From Hyphochytrium catenoides (taxonomy: Eukaryota; Sar; Hyphochytriomycetes; Hyphochytriales; Hyphochytriaceae), in NCBI GenBank assembly GCA_900088475.1, contig FLMG01000904.1, positions 123,918 through 154,916 on the forward strand: DNA of 30,999 nt. Reading direction: 5' to 3'. This document shows, piece by piece, positions 2,096-25,321 of the stretch. Every line of letters begins with the position of its first letter. The first letter of the stretch is position 1. The position numbers and the translations under genes were made by a program. Under the pieces are notes generated by a model. That model worked only from the letters and a program-made list of their open reading frames with translations, was not told the DNA's origin and made no database searches.

Positions 2096-3812
2096 TTAAA
2101 CGAGTGTAAGATATGCAAGGGAAACTAAGCAAGATACTGCACTGATGAGGGATACCGACGCAGTGGCGGCAGCACTCTGCTTGTTAGTGCCTGTCTCACT
2201 ATTGGCGCTATCGTCCGCACTGTCATTGTTGCCAGAGCCACCAGCGCTAGTGCCACCGCTAGTCTTGCCAGGAGTTGGCGCAGCCTGGGGTTTCCACTTG
2301 GCAGCATCACTGTCCTTCACAGGAGGACCGCCATTCACAGGAATGTGAGCATTATGAACAACCATTGAACCTCCAGGAGTAAAGGTTTCCAGGTCGGTGT
2401 AGGACCAACTGCCGTCCGTAGTGACAAACTTGACCTGAGCCCATTTCTGGCCGAAGTACATCTCAGTGAATGAATAGATACCGCCTTGTGTCCAGAATGT
2501 GTATGCGCCATAACCGTTCTCACCCTTCATCGTCGCCGCAGATTCTGCTGTGATGGCACCACCCGCACCATCCATAATGTAGTGGACACCCGTGGCATTC
2601 TGATAGTCATGAGATCCCGCGTGTGTGTGAGCGCAGAGGAAGATATTTACTTTCCCCTTGATGACGTCCAGCAGCTTCTTGTAAGGCTCATCTGCCGCCG
2701 CGAAGTGCCGGATTGGACAATAATGGGTGTTAACAACTTTCCATGTAGCCGTGGAAGCGGCTAGGTCTTTCTTAAGACCTTCCAGTGACTCCTCGAACCA
2801 CTGGTTTACCACATTGACGCAAGCGTTATAAATGTCAGGGGGTGCGCAATATGGGGTCCCGGGCTCAACATTCTTGCACTTATCGCAAGCAGCTGCATTT
2901 GTTCCTTTGGCACAGGTTTCCTTGATGTCGCCTCCGTAGCCGAAGCATTGACAGCAAGTCTCTTTTACACCGTGCGTAGTGGCAACGTTTGTGTCGATCG
3001 TATAGACCTCAACGGTGACTCCACTGGGGCTTTTAAAGCTATCCTTGAAATATGAGCCCTTGAACTGCCATCGGTTGTTCTTGCCTACATAGTCCCTTTG
3101 CGCCTTGTAATAAGCCCACATGGCATCTGTTGCTTCCTGAGCACTTTCACACTTTTTGTGCCAGACATCATTCATCTCATTAGTGCCAGGGTCCTGACCA
3201 CAGATATACGCAGTGCCTCCAATATCGTGATTGCCCAGACACATGACCCAAGGAATGTTCATCAATGAAGGGTGGGTGTAAACGTCCTCAAAGACCGAGT
3301 TGAAGAGCTCCGATTTGGGGTTTGCCACACCATCCCAGTAGAAGTTATCACCTTGCGTGATCACCGCCTGTGGCTTCACCTTCTCTGCAGATTTTCCCAT
3401 TAGAAACGCAATGGCCTTCTGTGCATGCCATTGTCGAAGCCAATTCTGAGTACCACAGGCAACATACTCAGGCTTCTCGTTCACTCTTGAGCCCCACCCA
3501 GGTGCACCGCCTGCTGCAAACCCGCAACTTGGTGGCTTTATCTTCTTTCCATCGGGGCCTACATCGAGACCACCTTGACTAGCAAGTGTTGCACCAAAGT
3601 CCCCTAGGGTCAGTAGTCGGACACCATTGTTATAGTCCTCTACAGTGTTTCAAAGCCAAGCGTTAGTCCGATCAAAGCAGCAAACGGAGAGAGCACCCGG
3701 GTCGTTTACCTTTGGTAGGTCCTTCCTTGACCTCATTGGAAAATATTCCCGACTTGGTCTGAGCATTAGCGGAGGTTGCTAAGGCGGCAACAAGAACGAA
3801 AAGGAGCTGCAT
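2096..3812 (-). CDS. Secreted purple acid phosphatase/TRAP-like metallophosphatase, probable GPI anchor
   Basis: Two exons, 3812-3710 and 3639-2096, flank a 70-nt GT-AG intron and give 548 residues. The ATG at 3812 opens a clear signal peptide (MQLLFVLVAALATSANA, residues 1-17). The calcineurin-like phosphoesterase motifs are in order: GDFG (D48), GDNFYWDG (D132, Y135), LGNHD (N171-H172), VNTHYCP (H340) and CAHTHAGSH (H372, H374). These are the usual dinuclear metal ligands of tartrate-resistant/purple acid phosphatases, so it should hydrolyse phosphomonoesters outside the cell or in the secretory/lysosomal system. A cysteine-rich insert (about residues 260-310) is larger than in animal ACP5. 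The end has a Ser/Gly/Asn-rich spacer and then a hydrophobic tail (VSLISAVSCLVSLAYLTLV) with no charged cytoplasmic end, typical of GPI attachment. The family is firm; substrate and anchor are inferred. Confidence 0.88.
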
Positions 3813-4084
3813 GATTGCTCTGCTTACTGGCCCGCCTTTCTGTCTGAGCCTTCTCTTACACCTGTGGCGGGTTGAGCAAATGCAATTCTGAAGACTTGCC
3901 TTGACCTTGAGAGCTGATTGACAGCTAATTCAATTCTATGTGAAGCGGAATAAGGTCACATTATTAGTAAGGTGTAAGAGAGCTATCAAGTGGGGCAGAC
4001 AGGCCATCCTGGCTCTTGCGTATGAAGCAGGAAGAAGGGCTGGTGAAAGAGTCAGTCAGAGGAGGTCGTCTCGGAGCTGAGGCC

Positions 4085-4130
4085 ATGAGAGTGAGAGCGC
4101 GAGAGTGAGAGAGAGAGAGAGAGAGTGAGA

Positions 4131-4174
<44 letters not shown>

Positions 4175-4315
4175 GAGTGAGTGAGAGTGAGTGAGAGAGT
4201 ATGAGAGAGAGTGAGTGAGCGAGAGAGATGTGTGTGTGTGTGAGAGAGAGAGTGTGTGTGTGTGAGAGAGAGTGTGTATGTGTGTGAGAGAGAGTGTGTG
4301 TGTGAGAGAGAGAGA

Positions 4316-4367
<52 letters not shown>

Positions 4368-4393
4368 AAGAGAGAGAAAGAGAGAGAAAGACA
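4085..4393. repeat. GA/GT-rich microsatellite
   Basis: About 300 bases of nearly pure (GA)n on the plus strand are broken by GAGT/GAGC interruptions and by several alternating (GT)n blocks between about 4228 and 4330. The stretch ends in AAAGAGAG units up to 4390. Long Ser/Leu/Thr/His 'proteins' readable on the minus strand come only from the repeat. Confidence 0.95.
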
Positions 4394-6271
4394 GACCCAA
4401 GGAAGCGTCACAGAGGGAAGGTTGACAGGGAGTAGTAATACTATCGCTGTCCTCTATAGAATCGACTGGGATGATGGTAGTAATAGTGCTCCTCATAGAC
4501 CTGAGTCTGATCAAAGCTGCTGCTGATTCACACGACACCGATACAAATATTTCCATGCCTCTTCGTAAGATTGGAAGCTTTCATAATGCGTCTATGATTT
4601 ATCCCTGGTATTCTATTGCGCCATTATTTCGGTGAAGAGAAACTTATTTGCAGGAGAATTCAAAGGGTTAGAGATGGTTCATCTGGGAAATGTATACATC
4701 ATCCTACTGTGTATTACTACTACGGAACTCTCTATAAGGATATAGTTATTTTATTTGACGCGTATTACTACGCCGCGCTGGCTTTGGGAAGGAAAATTTA
4801 GTCCCTTGTGTAATATTTGGCGTGTGGTGGGTGGGACTAAGAAGCGCTCCTCACACCCAGGCGGCAGCACTTCAGAAGAGGCAGTCACATCTGGATCAGG
4901 TGGGTCGTAGTAGTAGGTAGAAGGAAATACACAGATTATCTATAGCACTTTGGGAGTTGTAGTAATAGAACTATGTTCCGAGCCCGTAGGTTCCATGCGC
5001 TGCTGTGTGTCCAGCCTTGTGGGTCTCGTACCTGTTGCCATTGGAGCTATGAGCTATGAGCGACACCGTCCAGTACGCACACGTATACGACGTTTGTTCG
5101 GTGGTGTACCGAGATAAGATACGAAAGATACGGATGGGGCGTTACAGCTTCCCCACGGCGGCTTTAGGGCTTTGCGTCTGATCCTGCTGCTGCTTCTGGG
5201 GCCGCCTTCTTCTCGCCATCAGCATGTCATCATCCACGCCATCTACGAGTTCTAAGTTACGTCCTCCTATCATCGCTTGTGGCAGTTATAAATGACTCCA
5301 ATAGCTCAATAATGAATGCTTCGACGGCCAGCAGCTTTTCAACAAGAGAAACAGTTTGGACATGAGCCAGAGGTAGACGGTGGATGTCTCTGGCATGAAG
5401 AGAGTCATACTTGTTGCGTCTAGTAGTGTGGCTGCGCCGTCTCACTTCTATTTTCATTCTATGACCTCACTATCGGTCACATTGCCCGATTGTTCCTATG
5501 AGAGTTGTCCCAGAACGGTCTACGTCCGCATGTGGGCTTGCATGTGGCCTTCCCCTTGGTAGGGATAGGTTTGCCGTCAACCTTATAACGTCTGATCTAT
5601 AAAACTACTACTTTTCCATGGCTTCGTAGGAGTCTACCTAGCGATAAATAGACGTTCTCGTTAGATAGTTCTACTATGGGCCGAGTGGTACTGGACAGGT
5701 CTATCAACAAGACAGATAGACAAAGTGATGAAAGATATAAGGACTAAATGTGAATCTAAACCCATTTACAACGATGCACTGGGCTGCACTTGTACTGAAC
5801 ATTCCTGTCTCGGCCTCGCTCTCTCTTCTCTCGATAATATGGTCCAGGCCCACCCTTCCCTCTCGGCGGTCTCGATTGTTTTCTTGTCTCATTTAGATGG
5901 CAGTAGCTGCAAATCTCATTGCGTGATATGCATCATATCTAAAGCCGAAAAGCACATACGGATAACTGCTAACGAGGTCTGATGACCGTTTATCGGTCTC
6001 GACGATTGATTGATTTAGAGAGAACAAGTCATAGAGGTAACAAAACTATCATCCGATGTTATCATCTTGACCGTGCCAGGGGCAGAGAATATATCTCTGG
6101 AGGTGGAAAAAAGCCGATGTGGAAATAAAGGAAGAGGATCGTCTTAAAACAGTCAGTCAGAGATAAAATGCGGAATGCCGTCACTGTGACCAACTGTCAT
6201 TGTGCAAGTAGAGGGGAGAACTGAGAGGAACAGTTGTAGAGGGATAAAACTCTGACTGCAGGCTACACAGT
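4394..6271. other. Gene-poor stretch with one tentative small frame
   Basis: This 1.9 kb lies between the microsatellite and the 3' end of the STAND NTPase gene. No family could be recognised on either strand. The minus strand has a few protein-like pieces: 5142-5273 (listed separately), the region 5257-5457 with a Leu/Val/Glu-rich stretch, and an Arg/Gly-rich frame at about 5760-5900. They could not be joined into one gene. No tRNA, rRNA or repeat was seen. Confidence 0.5.
5142..5273 (-). CDS. Small ORF or terminal exon, unknown
   Basis: An ATG at 5273 opens a 43-residue frame that ends with TAA at 5142-5144. It begins MIGGRNLELVDGVDDDMLM and continues into an Arg/Gln/Lys-rich tail ending AAVGKL. 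The composition, an acidic patch then a basic, Gln-rich end, is protein-like and more ordered than neighbouring frames. It may be the last exon of a gene reaching into 5257-5457, where a hydrophobic/acidic minus-strand frame lies, or it may be chance. I do not recognise it. Confidence 0.22.
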   Translation of the reverse strand: MIGGRNLELVDGVDDDMLMARRRRPQKQQQDQTQSPKAAVGKL

Positions 6272-19392: not shown

Positions 19393-20867
19393 TTATAATG
19401 ACTCCATCAAGTTGACATTTGATTCCCCTTAGAACCGCTCATCATCATAGCACTAAGCTTCACTTCAGAGGTCCCAATTTGCGTACATCATTTGCTGATA
19501 ACCCTGCTACCTACTAGGGCATCATCTCCTCGACGCAAAAAATACTAGAAAGAAAGTATAGGTGCTGTCGTGCTGTTGCCTGTTGCCTTTAGCTTCGCTT
19601 TTTATGCGCATGATGACAACCTTCAGGCATTGGCTTGCCGTACAGTAGTCTTACTTGGCGAATCGATTGCACCTGTTGAAGACATGAACTATATTATGTG
19701 CATCACGTACGGTGGGACCTTTGAGAAGAGGCGTAATAAGAGTTCCACAATATAAGGGTTCTATCTTCCTGCTGTTGCTCTCTATTACTACTCAAGGCCC
19801 TCAGCAGGATCTGCAGGCGCCCACTTTAGAACGACGCATCAGGGGACCGACCACTGCTCGAAGGTTAATGTGGACAGCCAGGATGGACGGGAGGCTGCTC
19901 GGACTGCCTTCACTCCGAGCAACAGAGCGGCGATACTTCCAGTACCAGTTGCCGTCCGAGGAAGTGAACGTTTATTCAAACCTCTGCCTTGCACAGAACC
20001 GTTTCTGTTTCCGAGCTTGGTTGTCATGATACATAGCCTTTGAATAGTGTTTGTATGATTTATATCTCATTGTTCTTGACCACAAGATCCACCGTTACCC
20101 CTTCACCAGTAGTACAGTAGTAGTTCTATCTGCACTACCGTTTCTTTGCCTATGGAATGTTGGCTTAGACCCGGCTTAGATTATGGAGAAACAGTAGTAG
20201 AAATAAAACCTAATAACTCAATATCCCGACTACAGGTGGCTTACTTATTGGACGCAGCTTCTTCACCTTCGAGAAAAAGGAATAAGAAGGAAGATGGGTT
20301 GGGAACTACCCTTCCGGGAGACGAGGGGAAGACATTAGTGGCCTGTGGAAGTGGGGTCTGTGGTCCCTGCTATGACCGGGCACCGTTGCCTTGCAGCGGT
20401 GCAGAATGCAGATGGTTATTAGGATAGTACAGCGCTTGTCAGCCACAGCGCGCTTACTCGTAGATGCTGAAGTTCTGTCCTCTTCGGTGCATAATCCTTG
20501 TTCTGTGTCCGTACTCCCATTCTTAAGCCAAAGAAACAGCATTGCCGTGAACTCTATTGAACCCATCCCTGTGGACCCAGCCTTCCTGTCAGATGGAATA
20601 ACCTTCTTTCTGCCATCGGCTTCTCAATGCCATCTTTAGCCTTTACAGATTAGCTTCTGAAGCTTCTTGTTGAAGCTTTCTTCAAACAATATTCCGTTGG
20701 CAAACATCATCCTCAGTTTACAGATATCGGGTCCTCGGCACTAGTCGTTCGGCGCGGCGAGTAGCAGAAACGTATTTGACATCGTGGAGCTTAACACATT
20801 TTGCTTTACACGCTTTTTTGAAGTATCGCTATAGCAGGGAAAAAAGGACTCTTCAGAAGCTGAACAA

Positions 20868-22427
20868 ATGGGTCTCTTACATGGCGGCACCTCGGTGGTG
20901 GTGGCGCTGTTAAGCTTATCAGCTACTATCCACATATTTCTCTTCTATACTGCAAACGCGGCAACTATTGCCGCGGTGAGACGGCAGCGGAGTCTCATCG
21001 AAGCCCAGCCGCTTGTTACTCCGGCTGACATCTCCACTTGCAATATTACTGCTGATGAGCAATGTTCACCTGCAGAATTCAAGACTACCAACGGCACTCT
21101 CATCCTTCCAGGAGGGAACACCTCTTGCCTGTGGGGTAAGCCATATGGCTTCACCTACTACCCAGGGTCCGGCGACGATGCAAAGAAGCTCCTCATTTTC
21201 TTCCAGGGTGGTGGGGCTTGTTTCCTTAGTAAGTATCCGAACCTGAGTGGTACCTGCAGTCACATCGCAAAAGATCTCAATGTTCAGTTCACAGCGGCGA
21301 GTCAAGTTTACTTTGACGACTTCACAGGTGTATTCTCTCCTGTGGATGAAGGGAATCCTTACAGGTCATGGACAAAGGTTGTCGTGCATTACTGCTCGGG
21401 TGACCTTTACCTTGGCTCCTTGAACCGATCGTACGCCTATACCAATCGGACAGACGACACACAGCTCACCGACGAGGCCTTTCAGCGGGGCTTTGAGAAC
21501 ACATTGTCAGCTTTGACGTGGACTATCAGGAACTTTCCATCGCCAGATAGACTTGTCATTGCGGGCATGAGCGCTGGGGCGGTCGGAGCTCATCTTTGGT
21601 CTGACTACCTTCTCTCACGGTATAGCAAGATGGCGGATAGTCAGAAGGCTGTGGTACTGGATTCTTTTGGCCTCAGCGTTTTTCCTGCCAATCAAGGCAC
21701 AGTGATTAGGGAGACTGGCATCTGCGAATCTCTGCAAAGCTTGGGACTCCTCGTAGATGAGAAGCTGGCTCACTGCCAGAGGGGCGAGCTATGGATCAAT
21801 GAAGTTATATCTCAAGTTCATCAGAAGCATAACAACGTACCCTTTGTGATAGTCCAGTCCAAGATTGACAGCATCCAACAGGTCTTCTATAGTAGCCTCG
21901 CTTTGTTGGCCGATCTGAAAGTTATTCAGATCACGCCTCTTCAGCTTCCGGCTGGTGTGGATCTGGTGTATCCGTTCCTTCCCATCAAGCCGGACGAGTT
22001 CTATAGGGAGACGATGAAGGTGCTCAACTACTTTCTGCAGAACAGCAAGAATGTTCTATACTACTTGAGAAGCTCCGACCAGCATCAATATTTCACGGAT
22101 CCAAACTTCACAACTGTTGGCTTTGACTCAAAGCCTGATAAGCCCACTCTAGTTACGTTTCTAAGCCAGTTCCCGCTTGCTGTTGGGGAGAAAGCAGAGT
22201 CGCTCTGTGAGGAAGACTCCCTTTATCCCTGCCCAGGGATTGCATCCACTTTCACCCAGAGAGAGAAGGCAGCCCCACTACCCGCCGAGGCTATCACGAC
22301 TACTCCTGCACCTCCAGCTCCGTCGCCAGGCTCCACAGTACGGTCCATGGCTCCAGACGGAGTGACGACTTGCCTGCTTTCTGCGATCTTGGCGCTTGGT
22401 GCTCTCGCACATCTGCTGCTGGTGTAA
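20868..22427 (+). CDS. Pectinacetylesterase/Notum-family serine hydrolase, probable GPI anchor
   Basis: This is a single exon of 519 residues, notable among intron-rich neighbours. A hydrophobic signal or anchor lies at residues 9-33. The alpha/beta-hydrolase features of the PAE/Notum family are in order: oxyanion motif FFQGGGACF (111-119), HYCSGDLYLGS (174-184), nucleophile IAGMSAGAVGAHLWSDYL (S235), acid D334 in VQSKIDSIQ and H406 in SSDQHQYF. Several NxT/NxS sites suggest glycosylation. The C-terminus has a Pro/Ala/Thr-rich spacer and a final hydrophobic stretch (LSAILALGALAHLLLV) without a cytoplasmic tail, as in GPI-anchored proteins. Plant members deacetylate pectin and animal Notum removes palmitoleate from Wnt; the substrate here is unknown. 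The ATG at 20868 directly precedes the signal segment. Confidence 0.9.
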   Translation: MGLLHGGTSVVVALLSLSATIHIFLFYTANAATIAAVRRQRSLIEAQPLVTPADISTCNITADEQCSPAEFKTTNGTLILPGGNTSCLWGKPYGFTYYPGSGDDAKKLLIFFQGGGACFLSKYPNLSGTCSHIAKDLNVQFTAASQVYFDDFTGVFSPVDEGNPYRSWTKVVVHYCSGDLYLGSLNRSYAYTNRTDDTQLTDEAFQRGFENTLSALTWTIRNFPSPDRLVIAGMSAGAVGAHLWSDYLLSRYSKMADSQKAVVLDSFGLSVFPANQGTVIRETGICESLQSLGLLVDEKLAHCQRGELWINEVISQVHQKHNNVPFVIVQSKIDSIQQVFYSSLALLADLKVIQITPLQLPAGVDLVYPFLPIKPDEFYRETMKVLNYFLQNSKNVLYYLRSSDQHQYFTDPNFTTVGFDSKPDKPTLVTFLSQFPLAVGEKAESLCEEDSLYPCPGIASTFTQREKAAPLPAEAITTTPAPPAPSPGSTVRSMAPDGVTTCLLSAILALGALAHLLLV

Positions 22428-22592: not shown

Positions 22593-25321
22593 CTATTCCT
22601 CCTCATCCTCTTCCTCTTCTTCTTCCTCCTCTTCTTCCTCAAGCCACTGCAGGAATTTTGTGACGTCAATGATAGCCGTGGTCTTGCCTGGCACCTTGTC
22701 TGAGAGGTCATCTTTCCATTCGATGAAGCCTTGGTCCTCAATCACATCTAAAGCAGTCGAGCATACGAGCCTCACCACCAAGCATCATCGTCAACAGGAG
22801 CCGAGGACTCTTACCACACTGGTGCAGCTGGATAAATAGTTTCTCCAAAAGTCCCTTAGGATGTCCCACCTCGATGTAGTACCTTGGATGGGATAATGAG
22901 CGGTGCTATTGGCTATGAACAGCAATACACCAGGAGACTTACCGTTGGGCTTCAAAAAGGGCCTCCATCGCCTCTTTGGGCGCGACCTCGTAAAGGTAGT
23001 CGCCCAACAGGGCTCCGTACTGCCCTTGAGTCACCCACTTCAGGTCATCATTCTTGGATTTTACAGCCTTGGCCCTAGGAAGGCTAGCTGAGTTCAGGAA
23101 GGCCCAATCAAACAGTTCCTTGAGGGTTACCTGAGGAGTGCAGCCAAAATTTGACCTCCCTTCAACTCAACATTAGCTGCTGTGGCCTGCTCTTTAACCC
23201 AATCCTTGAGTGCAGAGCCTACATATTGAATGAGTTCCCCGCTTTTTTACGCCGATATTTCCCTCAAGTTGTCTGTTACTTACCTCGAAGATCGCTCTCT
23301 AAGATCTTCGAAATGAGGTCGTCTCTCTTTTTCTGCAGCTCTTCTGGGGATTCAGTAGAACGTTTTTGCACCTCCTAAATACATAGAAACCGAGGTCAGC
23401 AAACCATATTGATGGTGGACTGTTCGCAGACAGATAGACCTCCTGAGGCTTGCTCTTGCTTGTATCCTCATCCTGGACCGTGAGCTCTTCAAGCTTCTCT
23501 TCCACCTGCAACATTGAAAATGTCTTAGCCGCGACTTTTGCCAGAGATTTACAAGTGGAGGACCTTAGTGACAAGAGCCTGGCGAGCTCCTGGGCTCCTT
23601 GATCTGCTACCGCCTCTGGGCGGGCTCCGAGAGCCTGAAGGTCTGACGCGATCACCTGCCATAAAAAGGGTTACCCCAGTCCAAATGTAAGGTGTGGCAG
23701 ATGCAGCCTCTCACCTTCCCGTCTCGCTGGACTATCGCTCAGCCTTCCTCTGCCTGTGGCAAACTTATAATCAGGTTTTGATTGCTGCCCTTAGTAGAGG
23801 CGAGATAACATACCAGGATCCTCACGTCTAGATATATTACTTCGCTCTCCAGAATCCCTACGATCCGATCGTGGTCCTCCACCAATCGTCCTTAGACCAC
23901 TCCGGCTTTCTCTGCGAGTGCTAGCGGAAAGAGGTAAGCCGAAGTAAACTGCAGACTATTGCCGAGATAGATACGAACCCGGCAAGCATCTCAGCTTCTA
24001 GCCTAGCCCATTTATCTAGTTTCTCGGGCTGTTTCTCAGCCGATGGAGGATTCTGATACTCTAGAGCGTCCTAAAGAGGCGGTCGGTAGTCAGCGTGAAA
24101 GAACGCCCCGCAGAATCCAACTCTTTAAGGACTCACCTTGGTCAGCACGGCCCTAGCACCCCCAAAGGGGTCTACCTTTCTCCGAGGAGAAGAAGGCTTG
24201 GTCACCGATTCGGCCTTGGCTGGCTCCTGCTTCTCGGTGGAAGGCTTCGTAGGTTCTACACTTAGGAGTTAGTGGTGCAGACTACAACCAGTAGGTCCGT
24301 GTTATGAGTACCAGCTGGAATGGGAGTCTCTCGCTTCTTCAATTGTAGCTTCAAATGTGCAGGACGTTCGCTGGGTGCCTCATTGAAGCTATCGGAGGTT
24401 TGATGAGTATATTTGCAAGCTTATGAGGTAGCAGAATCTTATAACACACCTGTCTCTACCGCCAGGTCCACGGCCGCCATAGCTTCCAAAGCCTCTATCG
24501 CCGCGGTCGCCGAACCCACGGTCCGAGCCATATCTGTCGCGATCGCCGTATCTGTCCGCACCAAATCCTCCTCGGTCTCCATATCTATCACCACCAAAGC
24601 CACCGCGATCCCCGTATCTGTCTCCACCGAAGCCTCCACGGTCACTGTATCGGTCCCCTCCCCGATCCCCATAGCGGTCACGGTCGCCAAAGCCTTCACC
24701 CCGAAACCCTCTATCTCTGTCTCCAAAGCGGTCACCATATCCACCCCGCTCTCTATCTCCAAAGCCCCTGTGCGTGTGTTGTTAGCTCCATGTGTGAGAT
24801 AGATAAAGGGCATGGCTAACTTCGCGTGAAAGGCTATACAAAGAGGTTCAATTGGCATAGGTGCAGACAACGAAGGGTCAAATTGTTATTCTGCAGCTCG
24901 TACCGGCCACCGGGACCCCTGTCTCCGAATCCACTTCCTTCAGGTGGACCCCGTCTCCAGTTATCGTCTAGATGCCGTGAGATTATTAAGGTCTACCGCC
25001 TACATGGATCAGTGGGTAGTCGACGTACCAGTCATTGCCGCTGATTGCGCTTCTTCATCCTCTTCGTCGTCTGCCCATCTTCCACTTCCCCTCCAGTGGC
25101 TTCCACCCTCGCCGCGAGGCCCATCACGGCCGCCCCTCCCGTAACCATCGCGTGAGCCATCGTCTTCGCCAACGCTGTTGATAATGGTTATCCCCGCTGA
25201 ATTAGATGTCAAGGAAAGCATAGTCATCATGGCACCTGGGTCCGGTAGGCAGCCGGGCTTTTGGAGCGTAATTGCTATTGCCCAGGAAGTCTCCAAGGCT
25301 CATCTTCTTATTTTTACTCAT
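22593..25321 (-). CDS. eIF4B-like protein with C-terminal W2 (eIF4G/eIF5-type) domain, 16 exons
   Basis: Sixteen in-phase exons give 579 residues: 25321-25236, 25174-25029, 24967-24904, 24767-24450, 24388-24312, 24255-24137, 24070-23979, 23920-23814, 23753-23715, 23655-23564, 23505-23440, 23374-23284, 23218-23131, 23074-22943, 22882-22815 and 22747-22593. The N-terminus [10 protein letters not shown] resembles the eIF4B opening SLTDFL. Residues 99-205 are tandem [11 protein letters not shown] units like the DRYG repeats of eIF4B, followed by [10 protein letters not shown], a [12 protein letters not shown] motif and RS-rich linkers. No RRM was seen between these parts. The last 150 residues form a W2 fold: [45 protein letters not shown] and [18 protein letters not shown], closest to the eIF4G/eIF5 C-terminus. 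It is presumably a translation-initiation factor. No internal start or phase break separates the halves. Confidence 0.82.

Follow-up and report, generated by a model that had tools for sequence, protein, structure and literature searches.

A candidate eIF4B-like initiation factor ending in a W2 domain in Hyphochytrium catenoides, with relatives in oomycetes

Gene model of the eIF4B-W2 locus

We analyzed a stretch of 30,999 nucleotides from Hyphochytrium catenoides (contig FLMG01000904.1 of assembly GCA_900088475.1, positions 123,918 to 154,916), hereafter called the window. Its minus strand holds a gene whose predicted product combines an eIF4B-like front with a C-terminal W2 domain, and which we refer to as the eIF4B-W2 gene. 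In a hand-built model, the start codon (ATG) of this gene lies at 25321 and its stop codon (TAG) ends at 22593; the 16 exons encode 584 amino acids (Table 1). The number of sixteen exons and both gene ends had been given in a preliminary description, made by a model from the sequence alone, and they were recovered in an independent reconstruction. All 15 introns are of the GT...AG type and are 41 to 136 nucleotides long. To preserve the frame, introns 5, 8, and 12 were given adjusted acceptors, and introns 14 and 15 were introduced. Since splice sites can be chosen freely, the open phase across the exons is weak evidence. Intron 13 (41 nucleotides) has an in-frame alternative donor 27 nucleotides upstream, and the chosen donor preserves the length of the W2 domain. 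The splicing as drawn is thus a prediction of the model.

Codon usage was compared with a table compiled from 3,241 codons in six long frames, of which two lack a supporting family match. In 12 of the 16 exons, the model frame beat both alternative sense frames, and in 11 it beat all five other frames. Codon usage failed in exon 4 with its DRYG repeats and across exons 8 to 10, where an R/S-rich linker is encoded.

Table 1. Exons of the eIF4B-W2 gene model (positions in the window)
Exon	Positions	Strand	Content and remarks
1	25236..25321	-	Start; KKMSLGDFL motif at 25283-25309; LPTGPS motif reaching the splice site
2	25029..25174	-	RG-rich
3	24904..24967	-	Model
4	24450..24767	-	DRYG/RGG repeats; frame not favored by codon usage
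5	24312..24388	-	[12 protein letters not shown] motif at 24331-24366
6	24137..24255	-	PFGGARAV motif at 24146-24169
7	23979..24070	-	Model
8	23814..23920	-	R/S-rich linker; without codon-usage support
9	23715..23753	-	R/S-rich linker; without codon-usage support; frame-chosen acceptor
10	23564..23655	-	R/S-rich linker; without codon-usage support
11	23440..23505	-	Model and codon usage
12	23284..23374	-	Model and codon usage
13	23172..23218	-	First part of the W2 fold, preceding the Pfam match; frame-chosen acceptor
14	22943..23130	-	W2; Pfam W2 match starts at about 22968
15	22815..22882	-	W2 (PKGLLEK)
16	22593..22747	-	End of W2 (FIEWKDD ... FLQWLEEEE), acidic tail, TAG stop

W2 domain and eIF4B-like front of the predicted protein

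Pfam analysis revealed a W2 domain (PF02020) at residues 503 to 579 (E 1.6e-13; 51 bits, cut-off 30; profile positions 3 to 79 of 79), confirming the C-terminal W2 domain of the preliminary description. Up to E 10, the only further match of the protein was a chance-like one (E 9.2). Within the same limit, no RRM, MIF4G, or MA3 was found in the protein, in line with the earlier statement that RRM and MIF4G are missing, and its front contained neither the eIF-5_eIF-2B domain of eIF5 nor any other folded domain. The closest solved sequence to the window W2 is that of the C-terminal W2 of eIF4G2 (also named DAP5; E 9.9e-13, 51.4 bits), versus 21.4 bits for eIF5. In a structure model of a relative, the first Foldseek match of the HEAT region was likewise DAP5 (E 6.8e-5), and the modeled W2 fold also appeared similar to those of eIF5 and eIF2B-epsilon. 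Like the window protein, eIF5, eIF2B-epsilon, and BZW1/2 carry their W2 at the C terminus.

These likenesses bear on a reading in which the protein is mainly a regulator of start-codon choice of the BZW1/2 kind. Its W2 would compete for eIF2beta, and the RG-rich front would only recruit it to mRNA or ribosomes. Such a role would fit with the modeled resemblance to eIF5 and eIF2B-epsilon and with BZW proteins, which are thought to work via their C-terminal HEAT domain on eIF2beta (described in part of PMC5823381). However, the window W2 is by sequence closest to eIF4G2 and not to eIF5, and the eIF4B-like blocks described below are kept in the window protein and in its relatives. We therefore consider a BZW-like regulator rather unlikely.

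The front of the protein was compared with human eIF4B (residues 1 to 421, identical to PDB chain 6fec_u). Four motifs were found in the window protein, namely, KKMSLGDFL (starting at residue 5, with SLGDFL at residues 8 to 13), LPTGPS (24), [12 protein letters not shown] (213), and PFGGARAV (260). Their counterparts in human eIF4B, KTISLTDFL (13), LPTAPR (73), RPKLNLKPR (331), and IFGGAKPV (360), follow in the identical order, and in both proteins DRYG-type repeats lie between the motifs. When the window front or human eIF4B was shuffled 20,000 times, no motif pattern turned up in more than 9 of the shuffled sequences. These rates flatter the patterns, which were composed post hoc. The repeats of the window protein, which contains seven DR[YF], are encoded chiefly in exon 4, where a 33-nucleotide tandem repeat (3.3 copies) spans positions 24546 to 24655. 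Thus, both the SLGDFL-type N terminus and the DRYG repeats, previously taken as eIF4B-like, were found. Human eIF4B has an RRM and, over the 421 residues compared, showed no W2, whereas the window protein has a W2 and no RRM. Because the RRM is absent, we use the name eIF4B-like and do not speak of a canonical eIF4B. Plant eIF4B is not known to have an RRM either.

The same fusion in oomycetes and other relatives

A protein search with residues 370 to 584 yielded one match, P0001 (E 9.8e-20), among 7,986 candidates scored. When the W2 part of P0001 was used as the query, 16 proteins including P0001 itself were retrieved among 1,014 candidates. Six of them (P0010 to P0015) are of the eIF4G2 type, with MIF4G and in most cases also MA3, domains that the window protein lacks. 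Four of these six were tested for eIF4B-like motifs, and none of the four had any. The remaining ten (P0001 to P0009 and P0016) include proteins from Peronospora belbahrii (P0003), Bremia lactucae (P0004), Plasmopara halstedii (P0006), Globisporangium splendens (P0007, marked partial), Hyaloperonospora arabidopsidis (P0008), and Peronospora destructor (P0009), as named in the records, all of which we take to be oomycetes. In the public records, the oomycete proteins appear mostly as "W2 domain-containing protein" or "hypothetical protein," and otherwise as "unnamed protein product," "putative W2 domain, MIF4G-like domain superfamily protein," or "putative cleavage-induced protein."

Among these ten relatives, the RPxLxL pattern was present in eight (not in P0008, a short record, or in P0016), LPSGPR or LPTGPR in eight (not in P0001 or P0008), the SLGDFL-type pattern in six, with a variant recognized by eye in P0002, and PFGSAR in one. 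Five named oomycete proteins (P0003, P0004, P0006, P0007, and P0009) show the same order as the window protein: an SLGDFL-type start, LPSGPR, DRFG repeats, RPAHxRLNLxRR, and W2. Together with P0005, they share with the window protein the SLGDFL-type start, LPSGPR, DRFG/RG repeats, RPxLxLxxR, and W2. P0001 combines RG-rich repeats, RPRLQLAPR, and NPFGSARPV with W2 and, as recorded, differs from the window protein in lacking the first two motifs. The PFGGARAV block is common to the window protein and P0001, whereas its pattern is absent from the oomycete proteins. In addition, the window protein has a longer repeat than its oomycete relatives and an R/S-rich linker where theirs is R/G-rich. Within W2, a W-x4/5-[Y/F/L]G motif was present in the window protein and in nine of nine proteins (P0001 to P0007, P0009, and P0016), but in neither of two eIF4G2-type proteins. 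In a W2 tree, the window protein, P0016, and a W2 exon found elsewhere in the H. catenoides genome (on C372; see below) were long rows, and their placement is unsure.

The relationship was further analyzed with profiles of the relatives. An N-terminal profile was made from the N termini of six relatives, with the window protein and human eIF4B excluded, and run against 1,509 sequences including 1,500 shuffles. The window protein ranked first (E 1.2e-10, residues 1 to 35), and the best of the shuffles reached 0.16. With a mid-block profile of seven relatives, it again ranked first (E 2.7e-4), the next sequence being at 2.7. P0016 was found at rank 20 (E 3.2) with the N-terminal profile and was unlisted with the mid-block profile. 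This protein (442 amino acids) has a W2 of the same type, but in its front GPPPxxxSRF repeats and LPTGPR take the place of SLGDFL and DRYG; it is perhaps a further variant.

A chance joining of exons was considered and rejected, since named proteins elsewhere have the fusion and both ends of the window protein match them. A related possibility is that two adjacent genes, one eIF4B-like and one for a small W2 protein, were joined on paper via splice sites in the R/S-rich middle. The lack of codon-usage support for exons 8 to 10, which also weighs against our own reading of the locus, and the acceptors chosen by frame point in this direction. However, in the oomycete and other proteins the two ends belong to a single chain, and the window protein matches those proteins at either end. 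The relatives also have a linker, R/G-rich, at the position of the R/S-rich middle. Two separate genes are therefore highly improbable. The fusion of eIF4B-like front and W2 claimed in the preliminary description was thus supported, but it is not peculiar to this locus.

Whether the shared front is related to eIF4B by descent was judged from shuffling tests. The local alignment of human residues 327 to 400 with window residues 205 to 330 was equalled by 2 of 2,000 shuffles, and that with P0001 by none of 2,000; the mid-block alignment of the window protein with P0007 was equalled by 3 of 2,000. Several results count against an eIF4B assignment. The N terminus was not significantly similar to that of human eIF4B, either for the window protein (84/2,000 shuffles) or for P0007 (268/2,000), and the mid-block alignment of the window protein with P0001 was not significant either (96/2,000). 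The profiles of the relatives missed human eIF4B, which ranked 70th with the N-terminal profile (E 16) and was unlisted with the mid-block profile. Up to E 10, no match to PF06273, the Pfam family eIF-4B, was detected in nine of nine family members. PF06273 likewise found no match in the genome, where a control gave none either. The front and the mid-block were each used as queries in PDB sequence searches, which retrieved nothing up to E 10, and a protein search with residues 205 to 330 gave 170 candidates, none of them at E 0.001. The eIF4B likeness proposed in the preliminary description is accordingly borne out by the four motifs and not by matches to PF06273 or RRM.

In view of the results that count against eIF4B, the protein could instead be an RNA-binding protein rich in RGG/RS that bears a W2 domain and does not descend from eIF4B, the short motifs being convergent matches to patterns composed after the sequences were seen. 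We regard this as improbable, since the four motifs occur in the same order, each is rare among the shuffles, and no shuffle equalled the mid-block alignment of P0001 with the human protein. The evidence for the suggested eIF4B assignment consists of four short motifs, of which two align as one block, and includes no curated family match. Overall, we favor, with a probability of about 0.6, the reading that the locus is one gene encoding an RRM-less eIF4B-like initiation factor that ends in an eIF4G2-type W2 (HEAT) domain and belongs to a family shared with oomycetes.

Initiation factors of the genome, proposed working, and neighboring frames

The H. catenoides genome (42.5 Mb) was searched exon by exon, so that an absent match does not mean that a gene is absent. 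W2 was detected only in the eIF4B-W2 gene and on C372. The window protein appears to be single copy, as 14 of its 15 genome matches were the gene itself and the remaining one was the W2 on C372. C372 carries MIF4G (1077-1187 and 1498-1695) and W2 (5726-5890) on one strand. Judged by eye and by Pfam, and with MA3 not confirmed, it appears to hold a gene of the eIF4G2/DAP5 type in a protist. Within C372:1077-5890, MA3-like exons were seen by eye between MIF4G and W2; two frames were scanned with Pfam, with no match in either.

A frame of 925 residues at C769:124400-127177 contains MIF4G (304-528) and MA3 (737-849), and no W2 was found in it. Its YTIQELF stretch fits the eIF4E-binding consensus YxxxxL-hydrophobic, and the frame likely represents canonical eIF4G. 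MIF4G and MA3 also occur together on C1097 and C142. Searching the genome with the RRM of human eIF4B gave three matches at two places (C102 and C508); the match on C102 resembles, by eye, an RBMX2/IST3-type protein. Of the separate eIF4B and eIF4G genes that the preliminary description had suggested looking for, the genome holds the eIF4G-like frame on C769, and no separate RRM-bearing eIF4B was recognized in this search, which easily misses intron-split genes. The front domain of eIF5 (PF01873) had no genome match, probably owing to introns, which we do not read as absence. Among viral contigs, 36 pattern matches were obtained, none of which was confirmed. A perkinsid or dinoflagellate origin of the DNA was considered and rejected, as an exact spliced-leader pattern was absent and allowing up to 3 mismatches gave a single match, with 3 mismatches; this is not conclusive, because the assembly may lack repeats. 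For the beta-tubulin of the genome, 6u0h was the best PDB match, followed by 6u42 and 7miz, which come from Tetrahymena, Chlamydomonas, and Toxoplasma, respectively.

Since the window protein combines elements suited to both roles, we infer an RRM-less eIF4B-like factor with W2 docking, whose binding and activity steps are proposed here by analogy. As in eIF4B, binding of the 40S subunit and mRNA would fall to the N-terminal motif together with the RG/DRYG repeats and the RPxLxL-FGGA block. In yeast eIF4B, the 40S subunit is bound via the N-terminal domain and the repeats, and the RRM is dispensable (according to part of PMC8762332). The eIF4B-like front would raise the helicase activity of eIF4A. 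The W2 domain would dock on a partner in the preinitiation complex, most likely the N-terminal tail of eIF2beta, with eIF1, eIF3c, or an Mnk-like kinase as alternatives. In the sections consulted of the respective papers, the W2 of eIF4G2 is reported to bind Mnk1 and eIF2beta via acidic/aromatic boxes (PMC9977666), and eIF1, eIF2beta, eIF3c, and eIF4G are listed as partners of the eIF5 C-terminal domain (PMC5823381). In this way, a helicase-activating factor may be tied to the scanning complex.

No description of a fusion of eIF4B and W2 was found in the portion of the open-access (PMC) literature covered, a source mostly without subscription journals. The fusion looks like a genuine, overlooked version of eIF4B. 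Plant eIF4G is described without a W2 domain in the part of PMC3352336 used here, and the dinoflagellate eIF4G transcripts reported so far in PMC6027434, likewise used in part, comprise the MIF4G part only. A W2-less eIF4G is therefore not in itself unusual. Excerpts of PMC6027434 and PMC12787238 further describe eIF4B as unrecognized in dinoflagellates and apparently missing from apicomplexans, while warning that the eIF4B sequence is difficult to recognize. Tentatively, a broad protist group could carry the W2 contact on an RRM-less eIF4B and not on the eIF4G scaffold. Such an eIF4B would physically link the activation of the helicase with the eIF2 ternary complex, and the family might be the eIF4B that went unrecognized in dinoflagellates and apicomplexans. 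That the contact would have moved to eIF4B is suggested by the eIF4G-like frame on C769, where no W2 was found after MA3. The fusion adds a further W2 carrier, and its W2 mark provides a handle on a conserved eIF4B-like protein, since W2 is easily detected and the eIF4B front is not. It also leads to a testable proposal, namely, that one chain can hold both helicase stimulation and W2 contact.

Elsewhere in the window, a frame of the Pectinacetylesterase/Notum family (PF03283, E 1.7e-15) lies on the plus strand at 20835-22427. It points towards the eIF4B-W2 gene, and about 165 bases separate the ends of the two. On the minus strand, an exon at 27190-27759 matches the NADP-binding domain of saccharopine dehydrogenase (PF03435, E 7.2e-6), and a Metallophosphatase frame (PF00149, E 3.8e-7) at 2096-3649 has a hydrophobic C terminus that by eye resembles an anchor signal. 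The region 4001-5000 has a GC skew of 0.41 and contains simple repeats, one frame of which reads SLSLSL/HTHTLS.
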